Origin: Nitratiruptor tergarcus DSM 16512
GTDB lineage: Bacteria; Campylobacterota; Campylobacteria; Campylobacterales; Nitratiruptoraceae
Direction of reading: 5' to 3'
DNA: 64,000 bases
NCBI RefSeq assembly: GCF_027946175.1
Contig: NZ_AP026671.1
Span: 620,001-684,000, forward strand
Position 1 is the stretch's first letter, and every line of letters begins with the position of its first letter. The position numbers and the translations under genes are program-made. This document shows positions 24,132 through 56,784 of this stretch, piece after piece. The notes under the pieces are model-generated. The model was not told where the DNA came from and did no database searches. It worked only from the letters and a program-made list of their open reading frames with translations.

Positions 24132-24627
24132 ATGGGATGCACGATATAAAAACGCAACTACAATGCCACAGATAAATGATTTTCTTAAAAGATTTCTCCA
24201 TAAAGCTAAAAAAGGGGTAGCACTTGATATAGCTGCTGGAATGGGGCAGAATGCTCTGTTTTTAGCTGAGCATGGTTTTGAGGTGGATGCAGTTGATATT
24301 TCTGCAGTTGGATTACAAAATATACAAGGCATAGAGAATATCCACTGCTATGTAACTGATATACAAAAGTTTGCATTTCCAAAAAATCATTACACTGTCA
24401 TTTTAAATCTCAATTTTTTAGACCGCAGTATCTTTCAAGATGTAATTATCTCATTGCAAGAGGGTGGTCTGCTCTTTTTTCAAAGTTTTACACAAAAGTC
24501 ACATATGAATCTTCTCTTTTGTGTGGAGAAAAATGAGCTTTTGCAACAATTTAGTGATTTAGAGGTTTTGTATTATGAACTTTTTGATGATGAAAAAAGA
24601 GTTTTTATGTTGGCTCGAAAGAGTTGA
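24121..24627 (+). CDS. Class I SAM-dependent methyltransferase (TehB-like)
   Basis: A 168-residue protein starting at TTG 24121, inside the end of the upstream gene. It begins WDARYKNATTMPQINDFL and has motif I as ALDIAAGMGQNALFLAEHG, then VDAVDISAVGLQ as motif II. The following VILNLNFLDRSIF suits the small TehB-like class. The substrate is not evident. Its 3' end overlaps the convergent tetR-family gene by 23 bp. Confidence 0.8.
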   Translation: MKSKWDARYKNATTMPQINDFLKRFLHKAKKGVALDIAAGMGQNALFLAEHGFEVDAVDISAVGLQNIQGIENIHCYVTDIQKFAFPKNHYTVILNLNFLDRSIFQDVIISLQEGGLLFFQSFTQKSHMNLLFCVEKNELLQQFSDLEVLYYELFDDEKRVFMLARKS

Positions 24628-25246
24628 TACATACCCCTTCCCAGAAAAAATCTACATGTTTTTCAAATATTGTTGATAGGTGTGTAGTAGATCTGTTTTC
24701 CATTTTAAATAGAAGTATTTGGATGCGAAAATAGAAGAGGGGAGCAAAAAACTCTTGGGCAGTGAGCATAGGATCTCCACTTCTGATAAGCCCTTTTTGC
24801 ATCATGAGAAAAAAAGCTTCTGCAAGATTTTTTATATTTTTATCAAAAAAGTGTTCCAAAAACATCTTACGTACTTCGCTATTTTCCATAAGTTCCCAAA
24901 GTACAATGCGAAATAGTTTTTCATGTTTTGGATCAAAGCTAATGAGCTTGATAGTAGCAACATATTCATATAGATAGCGTTTACCTCTATGTGCATGCTC
25001 TTGAGGAGGTTTTTTGAGAAAAAAATTGTCAAAATCTGTTACAAAAAGTTTTTGCATTATCGCAAAAAATATCTCCTCTTTGTTTTTATAGTGATTATAG
25101 ATGGCACTCTCTCTCAAACCAACCTTTTTTGCTATCTTTCTCATGGAGGCTTTTTGATATCCCATTTGTGCAATAAGCTCTAAGGCGGCATCAAGTATTT
25201 TTTCTTTTGTGGACCCCTTTTTAATTGCCTCTATTTGCGCATCCAT
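24605..25246 (-). CDS. TetR/AcrR family transcriptional regulator
   Basis: A 213-residue protein. The N-terminal HTH is typical: KEKILDAALELIAQMGYQKAS, then MRKIAKKVGLRESAIYNHYKNKEEIF. The ligand-binding half is all-helical with no recognisable specificity. The ATG at 25246 follows a GGAAGG. Four operator-like palindromes begin about 19 bp upstream, in the gap shared with divergent xerH, so it probably represses itself and perhaps xerH or an unlinked gene. No transporter gene is adjacent. Confidence 0.88.
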   Translation of the reverse strand: MDAQIEAIKKGSTKEKILDAALELIAQMGYQKASMRKIAKKVGLRESAIYNHYKNKEEIFFAIMQKLFVTDFDNFFLKKPPQEHAHRGKRYLYEYVATIKLISFDPKHEKLFRIVLWELMENSEVRKMFLEHFFDKNIKNLAEAFFLMMQKGLIRSGDPMLTAQEFFAPLFYFRIQILLFKMENRSTTHLSTIFEKHVDFFWEGVCINSFEPT

Positions 25247-25264: not shown

Positions 25265-25344
25265 TGAACACTTGTTAATAGCTATATGAACAACTGTTAA
25301 TGAATATATTAACGATTGTTAATTCATATATTAACATAAGTTCA
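25265..25344. promoter_or_regulatory. Four 14-bp palindromic operator sites at an exact 22-bp period
   Basis: Sites are TGAACACTTGTTAA (25265-25278), TGAACAACTGTTAA (25287-25300), TTAACGATTGTTAA (25309-25322) and TTAACATAAGTTCA (25331-25344). All fit T(G/T)AAC-N4-GTT(A/C)A, and starts are 22 bp apart, close to two DNA turns, so bound dimers would lie on one face. They sit directly upstream of the TetR-family gene. Binding by that regulator is inferred. Confidence 0.75.
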
Positions 25345-25403
25345 CTTAATGAGAAAATAGAGAATAGTTGTTATATAATAATAATAGGAACAGAAATAAA
25401 AGT

Positions 25404-25423
25404 TTGAAAATTATAGTTTTCAA
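25404..25423. other. Candidate dif site (chromosome dimer resolution) next to xerH
   Basis: A palindrome with 7-bp arms TTGAAAA / TTTTCAA around a 6-base centre TTATAG lies 27 bp before the xerH start. The 6-bp spacer between inverted arms is the layout of dif sites. The GAAAA..TATA..TTTTC core resembles difSL/difH sites used by single-recombinase Xer systems, as I recall them. Adjacency to the recombinase gene supports the call. Confidence 0.55.
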
Positions 25424-25449
25424 TACAAATATTGTAGAGAGGAATCTTC

Positions 25450-26517: not shown

Positions 26518-26817
26518 ATGGAAGTGAAAAACTGTAATAGTTTGGAAGAAGTACGTGATGCTATTGATAAAATTGATGAAGAGATTGTAAAACTTATTGC
26601 CTTGCGAAGTAAGTATGTCAAGCAGGCTGCAAAATTTAAAGAGAGCGTAGAAGAGATTAAGAGTGATGAACGAATTAATGATGTGCTCAATCATGTGCGC
26701 CATCTTGCTGCGACTCTTGGAATTTCGCCAAATCTTGTAGCAGATATATTTAAAATTCTCATAGATAAAATGGTGGAGATGGAGATTGAGGAGTTTAAAA
26801 ATGGAGGGGCCTACTGA
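26518..26817 (+). CDS. Chorismate mutase (AroQ class)
   Basis: A 99-residue all-helical protein of the CM_2 family. It starts with VRDAIDKIDEEIVKLIALRSKYVKQAAKFK, where the conserved Asp, Arg and Lys of the AroQ active site are recognisable, and ends with a helix around FKILIDKMVEMEIEEF. It converts chorismate to prephenate for Phe/Tyr synthesis. It follows xerH by 15 bp behind a GGAG site. An isochorismate pyruvate-lyase role is possible for this subfamily but not supported by neighbours. The end overlaps convergent motB by 7 bp. Confidence 0.85.
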   Translation: MEVKNCNSLEEVRDAIDKIDEEIVKLIALRSKYVKQAAKFKESVEEIKSDERINDVLNHVRHLAATLGISPNLVADIFKILIDKMVEMEIEEFKNGGAY

Positions 26818-55778: not shown

Positions 55779-56453
55779 ATGGAAAAAATTTATGAGATGT
55801 TACAGCTACAAAATGAGCTCAACAATGATACAAATGGCTTGCAGTGGCGGGAAGGTATGACAAAAAATGGAAAAGTAATTAACTGGAAGCGTTGTATCTA
55901 TATGGAGAGCGCCGAACTCATCGACTCATTCCCATGGAAGCACTGGAAAAGTATTGATGCACAACCAGATTTTGCAAATATCAAAATAGAGCTCGTTGAT
56001 ATCTGGCACTTTATTATGAGCTATCTCTTACAGTACAATGATTTAACGCAGGCTGCAAAGCTTATAAATAATTCTAAAGATAGTATGAGCGATATAAAGA
56101 TCAAAGTATGGGATAATGCAAAGGTTGATGAGTATCTTGATATTTTTGAAGAGCTCATGGCACTAGCTTTAGTGAAAAATGATAGTGAAGCACTGCAAGA
56201 GTCTCTTTTGGAAACCTTTTTTAAAGCGTGTGATAGTGTGAATCTCACATTTGCTGAACTTTATAGCCTCTATATTGGCAAAAATGCACTCAATCAGTTT
56301 CGCCAAGAGCATGGATACAAAGAGGGAACATACAAAAAAATTTGGAATGGAAAAGAGGATAATGTAGTTATGCAAGAAATTTTAGCTGCAAATCCTAATA
56401 TTACATATACAAAACTCAAAGAAGAACTTGCTACTATGTATGAGGATTTATAG
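55779..56453 (+). CDS. dut: Dimeric dUTPase (all-alpha NTP pyrophosphohydrolase)
   Basis: A 224-residue protein of the dimeric dUTPase type found in Campylobacter, unrelated to the trimeric form. MESAELIDSFPWKHWK and KIELVDIWHF supply the metal-binding E-x-x-E and E-x-x-D sites, and FRQEHGYKEGTYKKIWNGKEDN is the C-terminal signature. It removes dUTP and supplies dUMP. It ends 2 bp from the 3' end of the convergent rnpB RNA. Confidence 0.92.
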   Translation: MEKIYEMLQLQNELNNDTNGLQWREGMTKNGKVINWKRCIYMESAELIDSFPWKHWKSIDAQPDFANIKIELVDIWHFIMSYLLQYNDLTQAAKLINNSKDSMSDIKIKVWDNAKVDEYLDIFEELMALALVKNDSEALQESLLETFFKACDSVNLTFAELYSLYIGKNALNQFRQEHGYKEGTYKKIWNGKEDNVVMQEILAANPNITYTKLKEELATMYEDL

Positions 56454-56454
56454 A

Positions 56455-56778
56455 GGCGCAGCTGTAAGCCGAGTTCTGTCTTGGATAGCAATTTATCTAG
56501 GCTTTATGTCACCATAAAGCTCAAGCGTCGCACTCGTAACGTGAGGCTTCAACCAGGTGCGACTTGCTGCGGGTTGGGTTTACACTGCCTTCTGTGTTAC
56601 CACAGAAGCGGTGAGCTCTTACCTCACCCTTTCACCCTTGCCTGTGCCAAAAGGCCATCGGCGGTTTATTTTCTGTTGCACTTTCCCTCGGCTTTCACCG
56701 GCCACCCGTTAGGTGGAACCCTGCCTCACTGCAGCTCGGACTTTCCTCTTGGATTTCCAAGTAGCTATCCGCTGCGCC
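56455..56778 (-). ncRNA. rnpB: RNase P RNA (M1 RNA), bacterial type A
   Basis: On the minus strand this stretch has the universal elements: GAGGAAAGTCC (56748-56738), ACAGAAAATAAACCGCC (56676-56660) and the 3' element CAGAACTCGGCTTACAG. The ends pair as P1: GGCGCAGC at 56778 with GCTGCGCC at 56455. Length is about 324 nt. It matures tRNA 5' ends. A strong promoter lies directly upstream. An insertion sequence sits just beyond that promoter. Confidence 0.95.
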
Positions 56779-56784
56779 AGTGAA

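Follow-up and report, generated by a model that had tools for sequence, protein, structure and literature searches.

A row of four palindromes upstream of a tetR gene probably constitutes the autoregulatory multi-operator of that gene, bound by the repressor on one face of the DNA and probably cooperatively. We give this reading, which is based on sequence comparisons, a probability of roughly 0.78. The array appears to belong to tetR, as it moves with tetR and not with the neighbouring recombinase gene xerH or with dif.

The four-site array and its neighbours

The original prediction described four 14-bp palindromes of the form T(G/T)AAC-N4-GTT(A/C)A at 22-bp steps between tetR and the divergent xerH. 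Both the coordinates and the gene context were as claimed, and the start-to-start distances of sites 1-4 are exactly 22, 22 and 22 bp. The features of the window, meaning the whole 64-kb stretch of DNA that was analysed, are as follows.

24605-25246, minus strand: TetR-family regulator of 213 aa, the proposed array-binding protein (TetR_N and TetR_C_7 matches; orthologues with arrays)
25265-25278, no strand: operator site 1, tetR-proximal, TGAACACTTGTTAA (exact pattern match; kept in orthologous loci)
25287-25300, no strand: operator site 2, TGAACAACTGTTAA (exact pattern match; kept in relatives)
25303-25308, minus strand: candidate tetR -10 box (TATATT) just 3' of site 3, placed by analogy with the fixed offset in relatives
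25309-25322, no strand: operator site 3, TTAACGATTGTTAA (exact pattern match; kept in relatives)
25331-25344, no strand: operator site 4, xerH-proximal and the weakest, TTAACATAAGTTCA (its N4, ATAA, deviates from RNNY)
about 25394-25433, minus strand: difH recombination site, outside the array (Nitratiruptor sp. SB155-2 difH 40-mer, PMC2731167)
25450-26502, plus strand: xerH tyrosine recombinase, the divergent neighbour, adjoining difH (Phage_int_SAM_6 2.9e-59, Phage_integrase 9.6e-36)

The window contains four matches to the pattern, all of them in the array. As a null, 100 dinucleotide-preserving shuffles of the window were scanned; these gave a mean of 0.40 matches and a maximum of 2, and none of the 100 reached four. 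Across the whole host genome the strict pattern was matched 13 times compared to 10 times for a reversed control, indicating that single sites are at background level and that the cluster alone stands out.

The tetR gene forms a single-gene unit that ends against a convergent gene. Its product carries the N-terminal TetR_N helix-turn-helix (PF00440, 1.2e-15) and an all-helical ligand/dimer domain, TetR_C_7 (PF14246, 4.3e-08), as expected of the TetR family; no equivalog was found for it in NCBIfam. The AlphaFold monomer is all-helical with a mean pLDDT of 77, and its best PDB match is 3bhq, followed by FadR-type TetRs. These matches are only generic, so the model is uninformative on dimer-dimer contacts. 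From its sequence and model, the protein appears to be a typical TetR carrying a TetR_C_7 domain.

On the other side of the array, a site fitting the difH consensus TGAAAAC---A-TTTTCAAA (PMC2731167, Table 2) lies beside xerH, between the array and that gene. A short chorismate-mutase-like gene (CM_2, 7.9e-17) follows directly after xerH at 26518-26817 on the plus strand, and in many same-family relatives it likewise adjoins xerH. The window also contains the RNase P RNA gene, rnpB (56449-56780, minus strand), a gene that in Sulfurimonas-type genomes flanks this tetR divergently.

Distribution of the array and its candidate targets

Searching 60 relatives yielded a TetR orthologue in 25, one match being weak and partial. 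In these 60 genomes the array was present with the orthologue and absent without it, the exceptions being G021, where the array has collapsed, and G027, which has a weak partial match. With 80 further TetR loci fetched from the genome collection, 94 distinct Campylobacterota loci with at least one site were available. Four sites were present in 62 of these, three in 24, five in 3 and one or two in the others, counts that include a few upstream regions cut by contig ends. The array was located just upstream of tetR, and the PWM from 352 sites reads T[G/T]AAC-RNNY-GTT[C/A]A. Conservation of site number and spacing in relatives had been proposed as a check; the array is indeed kept with tetR and usually has four sites, but its spacing is not fixed at 22 bp.

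Several variants were observed among these loci. In G021 (L029), tetR is kept and its upstream array is reduced to one recognisable site, a natural deletion. Five loci (L060, L064, L066, L072 and L078) have an extra TGAAC-N4-GTTAT, conserved in their clade, about -262 from tetR, which is about 138 bp, or about 13 turns, farther upstream than the array. In Sulfurimonas-type loci, proximal sites 3 and 4 are nearly always the asymmetric TTAAC-N4-GTTCA and the distal sites vary; the asymmetry perhaps reflects overlap with promoter elements.

The original prediction named xerH as a possible target. Distal-site dimers would then block or activate the xerH promoter and couple the level of the recombinase to a ligand. 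The divergent order tetR-difH-xerH is kept both in Nitratiruptoraceae and in Hydrogenimonas, whose TetRs are roughly 50-68% identical to the window protein; the xerH start is 105 bp from the distal array site, and candidate xerH -10 boxes sit between the array and difH. However, the array still precedes tetR in genomes where xerH lies elsewhere or is missing. In Sulfurimonas-type genomes tetR lies divergently beside rnpB (Rfam rnpB matches at 6/6 loci tested) and in another clade beside murA, in both cases with the array, and G037 and G045 have the same arrays and no xerH match. Conversely, the Hydrogenimonas-family genome G043 (L210) has difH-xerH without tetR and has no array, with a best PWM score of 2.5 compared to a median of 18.6 for real sites. 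No -10 box facing xerH was conserved within the 93 arrays analysed, whereas the conserved -10 faces tetR. Control of xerH as the main role of the array is thus unlikely.

An action on dif by shaping its DNA, so that the array would aid XerH recombination in an architectural or accessory role, was also suggested. It draws on proximity, as difH begins 49 bp from site 4 in the window, but it is contradicted by the arrays in G037 and G045 and by the array-less difH-xerH of G043, and the published account, in which difH and xerH are linked in most epsilonproteobacteria, makes no mention of such an array (PMC2731167). We consider this reading very improbable. The array may control xerH or dif incidentally, but such control is not supported as its purpose.

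We searched for further targets in several ways. Pairs of KAACNNNNGTT 21-51 bp apart were found essentially only upstream of tetR, both in 12 genomes and order-wide, the few chance matches being at control level; each of the 12 genomes has essentially one array. A genome scan for single sites had been proposed as a route to the regulon. It yielded none with strict patterns: no single-site regulon was found with TKAACRNNYGTTMA in 12 genomes or with WKAACRNNYGTTMW in the host genome, where every match outside the array was inside an ORF. In the relatives examined, nearly all strict single sites were coding; four were called intergenic (L170, L167, L198 and L199), of which L170 proved coding. On this sequence evidence, either there is no strong target besides tetR, or other targets rely on weaker sites that strict patterns miss. 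Retention of a regulator so widely without a recognisable second target is odd, and the genome-wide scans used strict patterns only, so they may have overlooked a regulon whose sites are weaker or different.

The same results bear on whether the protein could be a chromosome-organising TetR akin to SlmA or RefZ, with the array as its loading centre. Multi-site loading and weak family scores point that way, but the scores (42 bits for RefZ against a cut-off of 180; 25 bits for SlmA against 120) fall far short of the cut-offs and derive largely from the DNA-binding domain that these proteins share, and in place of chromosome-wide sites there is one array per genome with stray strict sites almost all in genes, which makes such a role highly unlikely.

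Helical spacing and the tetR promoter

The spacing between sites was examined in the about 94 loci. All 250 in-array spacings fall at 21-22 bp (19), 31-33 bp (216), 42-43 bp (12), 53 bp (1) or 63 bp (2), classes that correspond to 2, 3, 4, 5 and 6 helical turns, and spacings of 23-30, 34-41 and 44-52 bp were found in 0 of the 250 gaps. A visibly decayed site is present in some gaps of 42-43, 53 and 63 bp (e.g. L019, L022 and L051); L037 has three true 43-bp gaps. The resultant length of the 250 spacings was 0.95 at a period of 10.4-10.5 bp and did not change when each identity cluster (80, 70 or 60%) was represented by a single member. In the 20 representatives of the 70% clusters, every gap that did not belong to the common three-turn class (17 of 17) was on whole turns; the corresponding chance of 4e-12 under a flat 15-70 bp expectation is too strong a figure, since the gaps of any one array lack independence and the choice of period was post hoc. 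A fairer measure is the count of changes on the TetR tree. Turn class (all-2-turn, all-3-turn, all-4-turn or mixed) changed at least about 11 times, with the mixed class including one single-site locus and some labels reflecting site loss. Mixed arrays of 2-3-2, 3-3-2, 4-3-3 and 2-3-3-3 turns were seen, showing that gaps can change singly and still by whole turns only.

This whole-turn spacing suggests that several repressor molecules bind on one side of the DNA. The original prediction of one-face phasing holds in this respect across about 94 loci, but its exact 22 bp is only one value among several, 32 bp being the commonest and 43 bp also occurring. Uniform spacing could instead have arisen simply because a unit of about 22 or 32 bp was duplicated in tandem, with no selection on helical phase; spacing is often uniform within an array and the copies in the window show 71-76% similarity across 34 bp, but units that are not whole turns never occur and the mixed arrays indicate that gaps change independently, leaving this explanation with little likelihood.

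In three genomes of a family termed f7, two-site GAACATATGTTC pairs were observed 33 bp apart with a TATAAT-like box between them (G061:C33:56824-56868, G193:C20:6032-6076 and G228:C325:3301-3345). A full orthologue of the window TetR was not found in this family, and the pairs perhaps belong to another regulator with the same phasing rule.

The position of the tetR promoter was examined in 93 arrays. On the tetR strand, 69 of the 93 have a hexamer matching TATAAT at 5/6 positions or more after the second-proximal site, and in 59 of the 93 a TATAAT-like box lies 2 bp 3' of that site (offset +2). A perfect TATAAT after this site was found in 38 arrays on the tetR strand compared to 3 on the other strand. 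In six loci of a further clade (L035, L036, L058, L075, L080 and L097), the promoter is of the TTGACA-17-TATAAT type and its spacer is filled by the proximal site. Operators beside the -10 box and inside the promoter spacer are both classic locations for repressors. By sequence, the operator overlaps the promoter of its own gene, as in a TetR-family autoregulator, less clearly so in the window genome. Here the -10 candidates are weak (TATATT and TATAGC) and two other TATA-like spacers compete with TATATT, so the exact place of the tetR promoter, assigned by analogy, is uncertain.

Proposed mechanism and known systems

We infer that the window TetR binds these sites, that its binding is cooperative and that the effect is repression. 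Repressor homodimers would occupy three to five, usually four, TGAAC-N4-GTTCA-like palindromes straddling the tetR promoter. Of these palindromes, one would cover or adjoin the -35/-10 spacer, another would sit at the transcription start or immediately after it, and the others would lie upstream. The whole-turn distances between all sites would place the dimers on one DNA face, where they could act together. Cooperative loading is the natural reading of an array that is kept with tetR at whole-turn spacing, and by spacing alone the arrangement fits cooperative binding of two or more dimers of the EthR/QacR type. The outcome would be steep, switch-like autorepression, releasable by a ligand.

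TetR-family dimers are of a size at which neighbours could touch at 22 bp and could not at 32-43 bp on straight DNA, so that the longer distances would call for bending, looping or a common partner. Direct dimer contact may accordingly operate across two-turn gaps, with DNA bending or looping a conceivable route to cooperativity across three- to four-turn gaps. The filament-like complex of the original prediction is not indicated, as there are usually four sites and gaps of 32-43 bp would preclude side-by-side contact on straight DNA. A more tentative possibility is that about four repressor dimers and the array make up a single compact complex in which the DNA is wrapped or looped, with the repressor's own promoter as the only recognisable target. 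Contacts through bent DNA would allow gaps of two, three or four turns to be tolerated, leaving the face constrained and the distance free.

In the literature outside subscription journals, no description was found of helically phased TetR operator arrays or of the window TetR in Campylobacterota. The dif and xerH of the window are the known difH/XerH module of epsilonproteobacteria (PMC2731167), and the array is no part of that module. The closest resemblance at the level of the site is to RolR of Corynebacterium glutamicum, a TetR-family repressor whose operator REP1 is TGAAC-N4-GTTCA (PMC9210681). This palindrome is recovered by the PWM, with an identical half-site and spacer, and RolR likewise places more than one dimer on an operator. 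However, the RolR operator is 29 bp long, with one such palindrome and a second, different one, and is no array of three to five identical sites at whole turns. EthR of Mycobacterium tuberculosis binds a 55-bp operator as an octamer (cited in PMC9210681 and PMC9736018), which resembles the proposed array complex in bringing four TetR-family dimers' worth of protein together cooperatively on one operator region. In contrast, its operator is a single long composite, without separable palindromes at two-, three- or four-turn gaps. QacR and CgmR also bind with more than one dimer per operator (PMC9210681), but as a pair of dimers on a single 28-32 bp operator and not as a series of separate ones. 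None of RolR, QacR/CgmR or EthR is described as having a separable, whole-turn-spaced array of identical palindromes (PMC9210681, PMC9736018). As likely reasons for the array, xerH and dif can be dropped, and the natural 22, 32 and 43 bp variants allow a direct test of whether a TetR-family repressor cooperates in a face-dependent manner. The helical phasing of operators is normally demonstrated in a single engineered promoter; at these about 94 loci, natural evolution appears to have performed the phasing experiment, altering the gaps by whole turns only.
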